64,000 nt of DNA from the NCBI RefSeq assembly GCF_013376415.1, contig NZ_WYET01000004.1, positions 186,001-250,000 on the forward strand, read 5' to 3'. Of the stretch, positions 4,195-48,403 are shown in pieces (position 1 is the first letter of the stretch; each line of letters begins with the position of its first letter). The stretch comes from Flagellimonas chongwuensis. Lineage in GTDB: Bacteria > Bacteroidota > Bacteroidia > Flavobacteriales > Flavobacteriaceae. The notes beneath the pieces were generated by a model. That model was not told where the DNA came from, did not search any database, and saw only the letters and a list, made by a program, of their open reading frames with translations. The position numbers were made by a program, and so were the translations under genes.

Positions 4195-5112
4195 TTAACG
4201 TTTAAAGCGCTCAAAGATGGCCAAGGTCTTTTTGGTGTTGATAAAATACACCCCGGTCAAAAGTATGGCAGCCGCCAGAATAGATTGAAGGGTAATCTGT
4301 TCATCCAAAAAATACCAACCCAACAAGAGGGCAACAATGGGATTCACGTAGGTAGATGTGGCCACTTTTTCAGGAGAAACGGTCTTGAGCAGGTAGTTGA
4401 ACGAGGTGAACGCCAAGATGCTTCCAAAAAAGATGAGCAACAACATCGAAATCTGCACATCGCCGCTCCAGGCCAATGGTGATGACCATTCTTCTCCAAA
4501 CCCAAGACTCATCAAACTTAAAATAAGGCCTGCAAAGAACATTTGATAGCCTGTGTTTACAAAATAATTGGTCGGTAAATCTGCTTTGGCCACAAAAAGG
4601 CTTGCATACGCCCAGCAGAGCATACAAAAGAAAATCATTGCCATTCCAACGATGGATTCCTCTTGGGCTATAATCTGCTTTTGGCTTACTAGTAGGTAAA
4701 TGCCGACGATTCCCAAGACCACTCCCACTACGGACATAGGCTGTATTTTCTTCCCTTGGAGTATGCGCATCATCAAAAGGATAATAAGCGGTTGCGAAGA
4801 GATTTCGAGCGCTGCAAAGCCTGTGTCCACATAACGCAAGGCCCAGACCACCAATCCATTGCCAACGCTCAGGAATAGAATGCCTGCCAATACAGAGTTT
4901 ATAAGCTGTTTTTTGGTAATGCTTAGGGAAATCCCCATGATCTTGGCCAATACAAAAATACAGAGTCCTGCCACGGTGAACCTGCAGCTCGCCAACATGA
5001 ACGGTTCAAGTTCCATGACAGCGATTTTATTCAACAGGTAGGTTGAGCCCCATATAAAGTAAATGGCAAAAAACGCCATGATGACAAGTGCTGATTTTGA
5101 GGATTTTGCCAT
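4195..5112 (-). CDS. EamA/DMT-family transporter
   Basis: 305 aa with about ten hydrophobic segments arranged as two EamA repeats (about 8-140 and 150-295). The first helix has the family hallmark FAIYFIWGSTYLLNKIAV, and the repeat ends carry the usual GILFLSVGNGLVVWALRYV and FLDEQITLQSILAAAILLTG. Drug/metabolite transporters of this type export small metabolites or amino acids across the inner membrane; the substrate is unknown. The last residues FERFKR are cytoplasmic and basic. The start at 5112 (MAKSSKSALV) leaves a short positive N-terminus, as expected. Confidence 0.88.
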   Translation of the reverse strand: MAKSSKSALVIMAFFAIYFIWGSTYLLNKIAVMELEPFMLASCRFTVAGLCIFVLAKIMGISLSITKKQLINSVLAGILFLSVGNGLVVWALRYVDTGFAALEISSQPLIILLMMRILQGKKIQPMSVVGVVLGIVGIYLLVSQKQIIAQEESIVGMAMIFFCMLCWAYASLFVAKADLPTNYFVNTGYQMFFAGLILSLMSLGFGEEWSSPLAWSGDVQISMLLLIFFGSILAFTSFNYLLKTVSPEKVATSTYVNPIVALLLGWYFLDEQITLQSILAAAILLTGVYFINTKKTLAIFERFKR

Positions 5113-5197
5113 TGCGGGATACTGTTATTATCCTGCAATATTACGCATGAATATTGGGTGACGACCGTTTTGTTGAAAATTTAGAACAAAAAATCGC

Positions 5198-5530
5198 TTA
5201 CAAGGGCTTTTTAAGGTCGAAGAGATAGGCCGCGAATTCGCTTTCCAATACTTTGAAACGATCCAAATGGGATTCGATTTCATGGGTATGCGTTTCCGGT
5301 AAATCTACCTTTTGATTTCTTATTTTGGACAACAACCTATTTTGATGCTTCCTAAACTCTTGAATGTGTCTATTGAGCTCATAAAACTTTTCGAACCGCT
5401 GTGGACATTTGGGTTCAAAGGTGTAAGAATTTAATTTTTCCGATAGTCTTTGCACCATACGTTCGTTTCTTTCCACTCTTACAAGAAGTTCCTGTTTATG
5501 TTCAATGGTATTTGGGGATATATGTTGCAT
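5198..5530 (-). CDS. Hypothetical helical protein (110 aa)
   Basis: No family recognised. The sequence is charged and without hydrophobic segments. Two stretches (about 12-35 and 45-75) have the heptad-like pattern of coiled coils (LLVRVERNERMVQRLSEKL; FYELNRHIQEFRKHQNRLLS). It is cytoplasmic by composition. The ATG at 5530 is the first in frame; 85 bases separate its stop from the EamA start, on the same strand. Confidence 0.6.
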   Translation of the reverse strand: MQHISPNTIEHKQELLVRVERNERMVQRLSEKLNSYTFEPKCPQRFEKFYELNRHIQEFRKHQNRLLSKIRNQKVDLPETHTHEIESHLDRFKVLESEFAAYLFDLKKPL

Positions 5531-13296: not shown

Positions 13297-13962
13297 CTAC
13301 CAGTCAATAGCCTCTTTACCCATGCGGTTCAACAAATCATTTGTTTTGCTGAAATGCTGATTGCCAAACCACAGTCCTCTATTGGCACTCAAGGGCGAAG
13401 GATGCCCAGAGGTAAGAATATGGTGCTTGGTTTTATCAATCAAAGATGATTTTTTTTTGGCGAATCCGCCCCAAAGCAGAAAAACCACACCTTCCAATTC
13501 GTTGGAAACTGTTTGGATCACCGCATCCGTAAATTGCTCCCAACCCTTTTTCTGATGGCTTCCGGCCTGATGTGCCCGAACCGTCAGCGTCGCGTTCAAC
13601 AAGAGTACGCCTTGGTCGGCCCAACGCTCAAGATTACCGCTTTTAGGGTAAGGCTTTTCAACATCCGTTTTAATTTCTTTAAAAATATTGACCAAGGATG
13701 GTGGATGTGGAATCCCATCTTTTACGGAAAAGCACAATCCGTTGGCCTGGTTTGGGCCGTGGTACGGGTCTTGTCCAATAATTACCACTTTGGTTTCTTG
13801 AAAAGGGCAATGGTCGAACGCCGAAAAAATATCCGTTCCTTTGGGATAGCAGGTATGTTGTTGATATTCCTGCTTCACAAAAGCGGCTAATTGTTGGAAA
13901 TAGGGTTTTTCAAATTCGTCAGATAATTGCGTTTTCCAACTGGGTTCAATGTTTACCTCCAT
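13297..13962 (-). CDS. ung: Uracil-DNA glycosylase (family 1)
   Basis: 221 aa, full length. The catalytic water-activating motif GQDPYHGPNQANGLCFSV, the stacking segment LLLNATLTVRAHQAGSH, LLWGGFAKKK and the minor-groove loop HPSPLSANRG are all intact. It removes uracil from DNA as the first step of base excision repair. It is convergent with the NMT1-like gene and divergent from mutS2; the 122-base divergent region holds a -7 box for each gene. Confidence 0.98.
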   Translation of the reverse strand: MEVNIEPSWKTQLSDEFEKPYFQQLAAFVKQEYQQHTCYPKGTDIFSAFDHCPFQETKVVIIGQDPYHGPNQANGLCFSVKDGIPHPPSLVNIFKEIKTDVEKPYPKSGNLERWADQGVLLLNATLTVRAHQAGSHQKKGWEQFTDAVIQTVSNELEGVVFLLWGGFAKKKSSLIDKTKHHILTSGHPSPLSANRGLWFGNQHFSKTNDLLNRMGKEAIDW

Positions 13963-45355: not shown

Positions 45356-46111
45356 CTAACTTCCTGCTATTTGCTTTTTCAGCTCCTCCATCGATTCCTG
45401 TAACTGCCTTAAAAGTCCAGTTTCAGTTGTGGCGTCCACATTGAAAGTCAATTTACTGCTCACTTCCCAAATCTCCTGTATTTGAAAGGGCTTTATTTCG
45501 TATGGCGGGTAGGTTTCGTTTAAAGAAACCAAGGTAATATTGTTGGAGTTTGGCTTTCGCTCAATCTTCTTTACCATAACAGAGTCCTGAAGGACCACCA
45601 CATACATTTTATTTGGGCTCACATAATCGATATGTTCGATGGCACGGGCCAAGACCCAGTCATTAGGTCTTAGATTCGGCAACATACTGTCCCCTTCTAC
45701 TTGAAACCCCCTATACGTTGCATTCCGGAACTCTGGAATGGGCATGTCAAAAGCAGGCAATTGTCTGTACCAACTCGTATCGGAAATATTCTGCGGATAG
45801 CCCGCAGCGGCCTTGGCATTTACCATCACCATGTTATCGTTATCTGAATTATCAACCGTTACGACTTTTGGGATTACGCTAGTTTTGGAGGTATCCAGAT
45901 GTTTCTGGTCACTTTCCCCAAACAACCAAAGAGGATTGATTTTAAATTGCTTTAAAAGTTCGGTCACCACTTTCCCCGAAAGTTTGGTCCTCCCCCGCTC
46001 TATATCCGCTGTTGTATTCTTAACACCGAGTAAATCGGCAAATTCAGTTTGAGTAAAACCAAGTTCCCTTCGTAAATCGGTAAATCTTTTTAAGGTTATT
46101 TCATTTTCCAT
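45356..46111 (-). CDS. LexA-like XRE/S24 autocleaving repressor
   Basis: 251 aa from ATG 46111; an in-frame ATG at 46189 would start inside the operator region. The N-terminal HTH (about 8-62) reads LRRELGFTQTEFADLLGVKN and KLSGKVVTELLKQF. The C-terminal S24 peptidase domain keeps every LexA feature: cleavage site A103-G104 in AAAGYP, S142 in EGDSMLPNLRPNDWV, and the lysine general base K181 in VMVKKIER. Such repressors cut themselves when RecA filaments form on damaged DNA, then release target genes. It faces the radical SAM gene across four operators, implying autoregulation and control of that repair pair. A C-terminal helix (about 225-251) is an extra feature. Confidence 0.9.
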   Translation of the reverse strand: MENEITLKRFTDLRRELGFTQTEFADLLGVKNTTADIERGRTKLSGKVVTELLKQFKINPLWLFGESDQKHLDTSKTSVIPKVVTVDNSDNDNMVMVNAKAAAGYPQNISDTSWYRQLPAFDMPIPEFRNATYRGFQVEGDSMLPNLRPNDWVLARAIEHIDYVSPNKMYVVVLQDSVMVKKIERKPNSNNITLVSLNETYPPYEIKPFQIQEIWEVSSKLTFNVDATTETGLLRQLQESMEELKKQIAGS

Positions 46112-46125
46112 CTTCCTGTTGATAG

Positions 46126-46151
46126 TGTCAGGCCGAGCAAGTCGAAGTGAC
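46126..46151. repeat. Short partial REP-like element
   Basis: TGTCA (46126-46130) and TGACA (46147-46151) enclose a GCCGAGCAAGTCGAAG-like interior resembling REP elements. It lies just upstream of the repressor ATG, inside its probable leader, so it could form a weak hairpin. Confidence 0.35.
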
Positions 46152-46176
46152 AATCCATACCAAATATAAACGTTTT

Positions 46177-46251
46177 GGATTATTTCCAAAAATATTCATG
46201 GATTATTTCCACTTATTGGAATAATTCCATATTTTTGATTGGAATATTTCC
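46177..46251. promoter_or_regulatory. Four-site operator array with divergent promoters
   Basis: Four 11-base sites of the form GGAwTAwTTCC-like symmetry: GGATTATTTCC (46177-46187), GGATTATTTCC (46200-46210), GGAATAATTCC (46218-46228) and GGAATATTTCC (46241-46251). Centre spacings are 23, 18 and 23 bases, so the array is itself symmetric. A plus-strand -7 box TATTTTTG (46230-46237) lies between sites 3 and 4; a minus-strand -7 box TATTTTTG (46194-46187) lies between sites 1 and 2. A second minus-strand box TATATTTG (46168-46161) is also present. Binding should shut both promoters. Confidence 0.8.
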
Positions 46252-46256
46252 AAGTT

Positions 46257-47519
46257 ATGAATTTTGATAGGATACGAGAAAAACTGAACATATTGGCCGA
46301 TGCCGCTAAATACGATGTCTCCTGTGCAAGCAGTGGCAGTGACCGCTCCAACAAAAACAAAGGGTTGGGTAATGCCTCCAAAATGGGTATTTGCCATACC
46401 TACACGGCAGATGGTCGATGTGTATCATTATTAAAAATTCTTTTGACCAACCACTGCATTTTTGATTGCGCTTATTGTGTGACCCGAAAAAGCAACGATG
46501 TACCAAGGGCTGCTTTTAAAGTACAGGAAGTGGTGGACCTCACCATCAATTTTTATCGTAGAAATTATATCGAGGGGCTTTTTCTGAGTTCTGGCATATT
46601 CAAAAGCCCCGACCACACTATGGAACGCTTGATAGCGGTAGCTAAAAAACTGCGTGACGAGGAAAATTTCAATGGTTACATCCATTTAAAGTCAATTCCT
46701 GGTGCAAGTGATGAGTTAATGTACGAAGCAGGTCTTTACGCCGACCGACTTTCCGTAAATATAGAGGTTCCGACCATATCAGGTTTAAAACTTTTAGCCC
46801 CTGACAAAAAACATGAAGATTTCACCAAACCTATGGAAAAGGTAAAGAATGAAATTGTGCGCTACCAATCAGAGCGGAAGGTCATTAAAAATACACCGAA
46901 ATATGCCCCGGCGGGACAAAGCACCCAGATGATTGTAGGCGCTTCGGGAGAATCGGATAAGGATATCATGTATTCAGCCACTTATTATTACAAAACGTAT
47001 AATATGAAGCGAGTGTATTATTCCGGTTATGTTCCGGTGACCCACGATTCCCGTTTGCCAGCCATTGGCTCCCAGGTGCCTATGCTAAGAGAAAACCGTT
47101 TGTATCAGACGGATTGGCTTTTACGCTTTTATGGTTTTTCCATCGGCGAAATCTTAAACAATCAATTTCCCAACTTAGATATGGATGTGGACCCCAAACT
47201 CTCATGGGCCTTACGAAACCTACATCACTTTCCCGTAAATGTGAATACAGCTGACAAACAATTGTTGGCTCGAATTCCGGGAATAGGAATGCAATCGGTG
47301 CATAAAATTTTACAAGCAAGAAAATTTAGAAAATTGAACTGGGACCACCTTAAAAAAATCGGGGTGGCCCTCAACCGTGCCCAATATTTTATGGTCTGCG
47401 ATTCCCGGCTATGGGAACGTCGCGATATGGATGCGGATAAAATTAAAGGTATGATTTTGCAACAGTCCTCTGGAAAGTTTCGAGATCAGTACAGTGCACA
47501 ATTGTCCTTGTTCAATTAG
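46257..47519 (+). CDS. Putative DNA modification/repair radical SAM protein (TIGR03916-like)
   Basis: 420 aa from ATG 46257 (an upstream in-frame TTG at 46239 lies in operator 4). The radical SAM cluster motif is CIFDCAYC (C-x3-C-x2-C), preceded by SCASSGSDRSNKNKGLGN and followed by EGLFLSSGIFKSPDHTMERL. The C-terminus (about 320-375) has helix-hairpin-helix DNA-binding features: VNVNTADKQLLARIPGIGMQ and ILQARKFRKLNWDHLKKIGV. This matches the radical SAM family often linked to uracil-DNA glycosylase-like domains. The reaction is unknown; radical-based repair or modification of DNA is the family-level inference. It is the first gene under the four-operator promoter. Confidence 0.9.
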   Translation: MNFDRIREKLNILADAAKYDVSCASSGSDRSNKNKGLGNASKMGICHTYTADGRCVSLLKILLTNHCIFDCAYCVTRKSNDVPRAAFKVQEVVDLTINFYRRNYIEGLFLSSGIFKSPDHTMERLIAVAKKLRDEENFNGYIHLKSIPGASDELMYEAGLYADRLSVNIEVPTISGLKLLAPDKKHEDFTKPMEKVKNEIVRYQSERKVIKNTPKYAPAGQSTQMIVGASGESDKDIMYSATYYYKTYNMKRVYYSGYVPVTHDSRLPAIGSQVPMLRENRLYQTDWLLRFYGFSIGEILNNQFPNLDMDVDPKLSWALRNLHHFPVNVNTADKQLLARIPGIGMQSVHKILQARKFRKLNWDHLKKIGVALNRAQYFMVCDSRLWERRDMDADKIKGMILQQSSGKFRDQYSAQLSLFN

Positions 47520-47540
47520 CAACAGGCAATTGACAAGTAA

Positions 47541-47600
47541 GTCATTTCGACCGAAGGGTAGAAATCTAGATTTCTCAGTCGTAAACTCCTTCGAAATGAC
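47541..47600. repeat. REP-like element, copy 4, inside the repair operon
   Basis: GTCATTTCGA (47541-47550) and TCGAAATGAC (47591-47600) are perfect outer arms, and AGAAATCTAGATTTCT (47560-47575) is a perfect inner palindrome. It sits between the radical SAM stop (47519) and the DUF4130 start (47627) and may affect transcript stability or relative expression. Confidence 0.75.
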
Positions 47601-47626
47601 ATTAACGAAACTAAAAAGCAAACATT

Positions 47627-48403
47627 ATGAATACTTCAACAACCTTAGTTTACGACGGCAGTTTTAATGGTTTCTTGACTTCCGTCTTCGTCGCCTTTGA
47701 TGAGAAAATCAACGTGGCAGACATTCAAAAGAACAATCAATCCCAAAACGGATTGTTTTCTGAAACCGAAACTGTTTTCACGAATGTTGAAAAAGCAAAA
47801 CGGGTTTGGAACGGAATCCGCAACAAGAGCCATAACGCCATTTCCAATGTGTACTTTGCTTTTTTGAGCGAAGCCGAAGGCGTCGAAATGATGCTCTACA
47901 GCTACATTCAAAAATTGATGCGTGCCAAAAGTGGTAAAAATTTGGACTATTCGGACAGTACCGTGCTTTACATTGCCCAATTGGCCAAAAAAGTGGGGCG
48001 CGAGAAACATCGTATGGAAGCCTTTGTACGATTTCAATTGACCAAGGATGAAATCTTCTTTGCCAACATAGAACCTGATTTTGATATTCTACCTCTAATC
48101 TCCAAACATTTTCGCGACCGTTACGCCGACCAAAAATGGTTAATTTATGATGTAAAGCGCAAGTATGGTATTTATTACGATTTGGACCATGTGGAGATGG
48201 TATCCCTCAATTTAAAAGATATTCACCATAATAAAACAGTAAAAAGTGATTCCTTTGCCTCCGAAGAATATGAATGCCAAACGCTTTGGAACGATTATTT
48301 TAAAAGGACCAATATCGCATCTCGCATTAACCCTAAACTGCATAAACAACACGTACCTAAACGCTATTGGAAGTATTTGAGCGAGAAAAAGGAAGCGGTT
48401 TGA
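47627..48403 (+). CDS. DUF4130 protein, putative DNA repair partner (TIGR03915-like)
   Basis: 258 aa. It begins TTLVYDGSFNGFLTSVFVAF, the usual start of this family. The centre has TVLYIAQLAKKVGREKHRME and FVRFQLTKDEIFFANIEPDF, and it ends LWNDYFKRTNIASRINPKLH then KRYWKYLSEK. In other bacteria this domain is found next to, or fused with, a uracil-DNA glycosylase-like domain and beside the same radical SAM protein; here it stands alone, without the glycosylase part. It probably acts with the upstream enzyme; biochemistry is unknown. Its stop abuts the stop of the convergent gene at 48404. Confidence 0.9.
   Translation: MNTSTTLVYDGSFNGFLTSVFVAFDEKINVADIQKNNQSQNGLFSETETVFTNVEKAKRVWNGIRNKSHNAISNVYFAFLSEAEGVEMMLYSYIQKLMRAKSGKNLDYSDSTVLYIAQLAKKVGREKHRMEAFVRFQLTKDEIFFANIEPDFDILPLISKHFRDRYADQKWLIYDVKRKYGIYYDLDHVEMVSLNLKDIHHNKTVKSDSFASEEYECQTLWNDYFKRTNIASRINPKLHKQHVPKRYWKYLSEKKEAV

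Follow-up and report, generated by a model that had tools for sequence, protein, structure and literature searches.

Is a repressor gene that stands head to head with a putative repair operon a dedicated local device, or the SOS regulator of its genome? This question is raised by a locus of Flagellimonas chongwuensis at positions 45,356–48,403 of a 64,000-nucleotide stretch (the window; positions 186,001–250,000 of contig NZ_WYET01000004.1, assembly GCF_013376415.1), where the gene of a LexA-type repressor diverges from those of a radical S-adenosylmethionine (SAM) protein and a DUF4130 protein. A first-pass annotation had proposed a self-contained, DNA-damage-inducible module separate from classical LexA control. 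The three genes, the repressor residues A103-G104, S142 and K181, the radical SAM cysteines, the helix-hairpin-helix and the operators that it described were all found where it had placed them. Judged from sequence, however, the locus is very probably the non-canonical LexA of this flavobacterium, which acts as an SOS switch by RecA-triggered self-cleavage and whose promoter region also serves, in the opposite direction, a putative repair operon of radical SAM and DUF4130 genes.

A Non-Canonical LexA-Type Repressor

The repressor gene (45356..46111, minus strand) encodes a protein of 251 residues that family profiles and a residue check assign to the non-canonical LexA type, with a CI-like helix-turn-helix (HTH) domain (HTH_3, PF01381; 33.4 bits against a cut-off of 23) and an S24 peptidase domain (PF00717; 51 bits against 23.3). 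Its probable start is the ATG at 46111 rather than the TTG at 46189, as relatives align from the Met at 46111. The scissile Ala-Gly bond A103-G104 and the Ser-Lys dyad S142/K181 are intact, with the residue numbering checked. Neither a LexA winged-helix domain nor any match to a LexA model was found in this protein, which returned only HTH_3 and HTH_19 as DNA-binding domains at E <= 0.001, and PADLOC gave only weak HTH matches for it. The repressor of Allomuricauda abyssi is 98% identical, and some relatives are labelled by their sources as LexA family transcriptional regulator or SOS-response transcriptional repressor LexA. If the repressor is cut at A103, the new Lys-Ala-Ala-Ala end would resemble an ssrA-type ClpXP signal.

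The genome searched (3.77 Mb, 99.99% complete) holds two S24 genes, that of the window's repressor and that of a 149-residue UmuD-like protein, which overlaps umuC. The S24 search found no canonical LexA, and the window's repressor is the sole repressor-type S24 protein of the genome. Because no second one is present, it can be regarded as the genome's LexA and not as separate from LexA; a dedicated switch beside a classical LexA is rejected on the same ground.

The text of Sanchez-Osuna et al. (2021; PMC8565304) describes non-canonical Bacteroidetes LexA proteins as S24 repressors with a CI-like HTH, among them a group with GGA-N5-TCC operators found mainly in Flavobacteriaceae. According to the same text, these operators were bound and mapped by electrophoretic mobility shift assay, their targets were induced by mitomycin C in another flavobacterium, and mitomycin C induction was obtained for two members of the repressor family. 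The F. chongwuensis protein shares with those described there the HTH_3 and S24 domains, the Ala-Gly bond, the Ser-Lys dyad, GGA-N5-TCC sites at its own promoter and a place in the Flavobacteriaceae; as far as domains, residues and operator can tell, it is the LexA substitute of this genome.

Operators in the Divergent Promoter Region

A pattern search located four GGA-N5-TCC palindromes between the divergent genes, at 46176–46252: O1 (TGGATTATTTCCA, 46176..46188), O2 (TGGATTATTTCCA, 46199..46211), O3 (TGGAATAATTCCA, 46217..46229) and O4 (TGGAATATTTCCA, 46240..46252). Promoters were called with TTG...TAnnTTTG, which we take to be the Bacteroidetes −33/−7 consensus. A putative repressor promoter of this type, TTG-N18-TATATTTG, lies on the minus strand (46161..46189) with O1 in its spacer, and on the plus strand O3 adjoins a putative −7 box of the effector operon, TATTTTTG (46230..46237), recognised as TAnnTTTG after an operator.

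This layout recurs in relatives. The 260 nucleotides upstream of the repressor hold 469 GGA-N5-TCC sites across 151 loci. This gives 3.1 per locus, where the density of the pattern within the same loci predicts 0.14, and is not due to chance. The commonest spacing is 23 or 18 nucleotides, and two loci (L200 and L241) show no site upstream of the repressor. Where DUF4130 is also present (123 loci), an operator lies within the repressor promoter in 109, and 2.4% of shuffled sequences hold any such promoter. On the effector side, TAnnTTTG follows an operator by at most 4 nucleotides in 117 of these 123 loci, against about 1% by chance; the full TTG-N17-22 spacing around an operator was found there in only one, so that the conserved part is the −7 box beside the operator. 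The operators thus laid out are real and positioned to repress both divergent promoters.

In undamaged cells, repressor dimers would occupy the four sites, which lie beside or within the two promoters, and would silence transcription either way. Upon DNA damage, RecA on single-stranded DNA would be expected, from the residues and the family, to trigger self-cleavage at A103-G104, after which both divergent sides would be switched on, along with one or more radical SAM genes elsewhere in the genome. The radical SAM/DUF4130 pair would then act on DNA, and the Ala-Val tail of the DUF4130 protein, described below, may afterwards direct its proteolytic removal.

Conservation of the Arrangement

In a sample of 199 Flavobacteriaceae genomes, one per genus, DUF4130 is found in 65 and the radical SAM protein in 46 (a 47th match is a weak fragment). 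A repressor relative of some kind occurs in 134, and 72 of these reach E < 1e-60. As the first-pass annotation required, repressor and operators are conserved beside the pair in relatives: besides the 3.1 sites per locus, pair and repressor diverge head to head, no more than about 500 nucleotides apart, in 25 of the 46 genomes that hold the pair, F. chongwuensis included. The pair is directed away from the repressor, at about 4.4 and 5.9 kb, in G111 and G010; in four genomes the close repressor is found elsewhere or on a different contig, and 15 genomes lack a close repressor.

Of the 72 repressors that match this closely, 25 lie opposite the pair and 18 opposite a lone DUF4130 gene; for the other 29, the fetched stretch, in some cases cut by a contig end, shows neither in head-to-head position. 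Because of these 29, the repressor is not considered tied to the radical SAM/DUF4130 operon. Other repressor neighbours were viewed for loci up to L223; loci L171-L173 equal L090, L096 and L095 in layout and identity.

An Apparently Small Regulon

The genome carries 43 WGGAWWWWWTCCW sites, every one of which was inspected (the reversed pattern gives 21). Besides the divergent region, a single promoter holds more than one site: tandem GGA-N5-TCC sites at C2:253244-253275 (1545-1576 of locus L269), outside the window, precede a PA0069-family radical SAM gene by a few bases and make it a probable second target of the repressor. Another three sites stand singly between genes (L268, L280, L287), and the remaining ones lie within open reading frames (ORFs) that were called mechanically; with TTG starts, even O1 and O4 are flagged as inside. 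The module is therefore nearly self-contained in extent, as first proposed, this second promoter being the part that falls outside it.

We take COG4277 to correspond to TIGR03916, the radical SAM family of this operon, and COG1533 in the published regulon to be the class of the PA0069-family gene. The text of PMC8565304 counts radical SAM genes of COG1533, together with a COG1573-COG4277 operon, among the members of the GGA-N5-TCC regulon, a further likeness to the system described here.

Several points weigh against this repressor being the LexA of its genome. No convincing GGA-N5-TCC site was found upstream of recA, dinB or umuDC in this genome, a difference from the published system, whose text reports in turn that recA was apparently not induced in the tested S. 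agarivorans (PMC8565304). IrvR is reported to be an S24 regulator that does not follow the RecA paradigm (PMC7101444). In addition, the match to the published group, whose tested protein is WP_075324850.1, is one of domains, residues and operator type. Because recA, dinB and umuDC have no convincing sites, the regulon of this LexA may have shrunk.

These observations also bear on a different reading, in which a repressor derived from a phage CI serves as a dedicated local switch that controls almost only its own divergent operon, recA, umuDC and dinB being run otherwise. The lone additional tandem pair among 43 sites and the bare recA, dinB and umuDC promoters would fit such a device. However, the gene behind the second promoter is again a radical SAM gene, its class taken to belong to the published regulon; at the 29 repressors mentioned above, no pair and no solo DUF4130 gene faces the repressor within the fetched stretch; and degenerate operators would escape the GGA-N5-TCC pattern. 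We regard the local device as unlikely, and the switch as the LexA substitute of the genome, with an apparently small regulon.

The IMS family search of the genome returned DinB and UmuC only. In the umu locus (L001 1477-3182, contig 4), umuC comes before umuD and the genes overlap. The stretch upstream of umuC holds TTACATAGTAA and no GGA-N5-TCC, so umuC-umuD may have other control.

The Radical SAM/DUF4130 Pair

The first effector gene (46257..47519, plus strand) encodes a 420-residue radical SAM protein with a C-terminal helix-hairpin-helix. It belongs to TIGR03916 (665 bits against a cut-off of 343.5), is also matched by PF04055 and HHH_3, and carries CIFDCAYC (CX3CX2C) in its translation. 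The second gene (47627..48403, plus strand) encodes a DUF4130 protein of 258 residues, of family TIGR03915 (270 bits against 112; 181 against 27 bits with the DUF4130 profile). Family profile searches found no uracil-DNA glycosylase (UDG) domain in this protein, just as the first-pass annotation had noted. PADLOC matched neither effector, and viral contigs gave no radical SAM match and one partial DUF4130 match, at 364-813 of L296 (IMGVR_UViG_2515154147_000003), with 49% identity to the DUF4130 alignment over residues 107-257.

To our knowledge, the chemistry of TIGR03916 and TIGR03915 has not been established. This would leave room for a repressor that answers a signal other than RecA filaments, such as a ligand or a partner protein, and for an operon that modifies DNA rather than repairing it; the literature offered context and a single mention of TIGR03914, in the available part of PMC13212565. 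This reading is nevertheless very unlikely, given the intact Ala-Gly bond and Ser/Lys residues and the mitomycin C induction reported for two family members in the text of PMC8565304. RecA-triggered self-cleavage remains the preferred reading.

The pair also occurs on plasmids. On two alphaproteobacterial plasmids, the same TIGR03916 family has a DUF4130 protein close by, which there forms DUF4130-UDG fusions of 481 and 472 residues annotated as UdgX. In contrast, the Flavobacteriaceae protein is not fused, its open frame measuring 178-321 residues in all 65 genomes that hold DUF4130. The partner on a Spirosoma plasmid is a 255-residue DUF4130 alone. On plasmid p2 of Azospirillum sp. TSA2s (L299), a TnpB-type gene lies on the opposite strand (4252-5394) between the radical SAM and DUF4130-UDG genes. 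No relevant literature on UdgX with radical SAM was found. The text of PMC8565304 places a UDG-based system under SOS control in Alphaproteobacteria and Verrucomicrobia; because all Flavobacteriaceae frames are of 178-321 residues, the COG1573 label "uracil-DNA glycosylase" of its flavobacterial regulon may cover glycosylase-free DUF4130 proteins.

As in LexA-imuA-imuB-dnaE2 and umuDC cassettes, a gene for an autocleaving repressor or peptidase lies here beside damage-response genes; however, the effectors of those cassettes are polymerases, whereas here they are the radical SAM/DUF4130 pair. The head-to-head layout was not found in the Results text of PMC8565304, figures and supplements aside. 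Elsewhere in the window, outside this operon, a 221-residue UDG gene lies at about 13297-13962 (L253 1468-2133), and a second PF03167 match, likewise outside the operon, is on contig 2.

Recurrent Loss of the Radical SAM Gene

Within the Flavobacteriaceae sample, DUF4130 is present in all 46 radical SAM genomes, whereas the radical SAM gene is absent from 19 of the 65 DUF4130 genomes. DUF4130 is directly divergent from the repressor in 18 of these 19 (the exception is G132). The same solo layout, with operators kept, is seen in 16 of 80 named relatives (L039, L040, L043, L053, L059, L064, L066-L068, L071, L072, L075, L087, L088, L091 and L099). Fifteen of these 16 were searched with the radical SAM query and none matched, in a search that had no positive control of its own but used the query that matches 46 Flavobacteriaceae genomes.

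On a quick repressor tree with 119 rows (4 of 123 with a duplicate repressor sequence were removed), parsimony places 18 changes between presence and absence of the radical SAM gene, of which at least five are forced by the starred branches alone; 62 of its 116 inner forks are open, and the tree by itself cannot separate gain from loss. Sisters such as Muricauda sp. NBRC 101325 (lost) and A. zhangzhouensis (kept) differ in this respect. Among 296 Bacteroidota genomes, 96 hold DUF4130 and 94 of these also hold the radical SAM gene, the exceptions being G032, from this clade, and G244; in G236 and G328 the radical SAM gene lies at a contig start and no DUF4130 is shown. As the pair is the rule in the phylum, the solo state is read as loss, and it is concentrated in the back-to-back setting with the repressor.

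Selection, Residues and Tail of Solo DUF4130 Proteins

Two or more operators are retained at all 34 solo loci and the −7 box at 33, their frames are open, and the four solo proteins tested still score as DUF4130. Finite estimates of the ratio of nonsynonymous to synonymous substitution rates (dN/dS), by a crude Nei-Gojobori calculation, are 0.06-0.09 for five comparisons among solo genes and 0.02-0.06 for six among pairs, and solo members may share a paired history. Saturated solo comparisons give bounds of 0.08-0.11, and 0.24 for the most diverged, when a dS of 3 is assumed; solo-versus-pair values are 0.03, 0.04 and 0.14. The solo proteins thus stay under purifying selection and are not plain debris.

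Residues fall into two classes. More than 90% of the solo proteins keep Y9, D10, G11, F13, G15, F16, L17, W61, P150, L155, P156, L157, W171, D175 and R178. Mostly lost in them, although near-invariant in pairs, are H128, R135, R165, D168, Q169 and the C-terminal RxNxKLHxxHxPKRYWKYLxEK, and these losses single out the part of DUF4130 that would depend on the radical SAM protein. In the window, the C-terminal part comprises residues 196-258 (48212..48400, plus strand), combines the pair-invariant motif of the alignment with low model confidence, and ends in Glu-Ala-Val.

The final Ala-Val (48395-48400 in the window) is encoded by varied codons and occurs in 24 of the 34 solo proteins and in 53 of 97 of the paired set, which includes eight loci fetched without a repressor and L204, at 4.4 kb from its repressor. 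Five solo forms of 200-202 residues keep it without the whole C-terminal motif. It ends 94 of 120 close homologues, none of 120 distant homologues, and 4 of 379 other ORFs of the window and the fetched loci, a background that includes mutual homologues. Common descent accounts for part of this conservation in pairs, and for less of it in the rebuilt solo ends. These ends resemble ssrA-type ClpXP signals, such as the AAV and ASV tag variants, and by this analogy the tail may be a proteolysis signal.

The disappearance of the C-terminal motif and of many pair-invariant residues, the faster divergence of solo than of paired proteins and the solo-versus-pair dN/dS of up to 0.14 would fit solo genes that are decaying, functionless leftovers of radical SAM loss. 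However, such decay is hard to reconcile with open frames, the low solo ratios, and the operators, −7 boxes and Ala-Val ends that are kept, and it appears distinctly improbable.

Predicted Fold of DUF4130

The AlphaFold model used, built with 96 sequences, has a pLDDT of 84.1; a first model with 36 close homologues was discarded (pLDDT 45.9). The core (residues 1-195; 47627..48211, plus strand), mostly with pLDDT above 90, resembles DHH-DHHA1 folds (RecJ, Cdc45, NrnA) with moderate structure scores. DUF4130 differs from these phosphoesterases in sequence: a profile search of the PDB at E <= 10 gave no match, no DHH or DHHA1 family appeared at E <= 10 among the 25 of 56 Pfam families listed for 96 DUF4130 members, and the DHH motif is absent from the invariant columns of the alignment. 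As the PDB and Pfam searches gave no sequence link, it is structure that carries the claim of a DHH-like fold. Within YDGSF, only D10 resembles what we take to be DHH motif I.

A tentative proposal, on balance somewhat doubtful, is that DUF4130 is a small SOS protein of RecJ/Cdc45-like (DHH-DHHA1) type, able to work independently of the radical SAM enzyme. The core would do one damage-response job, the C-terminal PKRYW part would depend on the radical SAM protein and be lost after that gene, and Ala-Val would mark the protein for removal.

Implications for the Flavobacterial SOS Response

The class of the repressor was already published; the repeated loss of the radical SAM gene, with DUF4130 kept under the same control, is new. 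The additions to a known SOS regulator are the conserved head-to-head arrangement, this loss, and the tail and fold suggested for DUF4130. No paper on them was found under family and topic terms, in a literature that included the text of PMC8565304 without its figures and supplements.

A seemingly novel switch is thereby placed inside a published SOS system. A caution follows for annotation, as the "uracil-DNA glycosylase" of flavobacterial SOS regulons may be a DUF4130 protein without a glycosylase domain. The natural radical SAM losses separate the DUF4130 residues that depend on that gene from those that do not, and make an uncharacterised repair pair testable. If the proposed role of DUF4130 is true, the module would have the LexA-DUF4130 promoter unit as its conserved centre, to which the radical SAM enzyme is added in some lineages only; should the RecJ/Cdc45-like fold and the tail signal both be borne out, DUF4130 would represent a new type of SOS effector in marine Bacteroidota.

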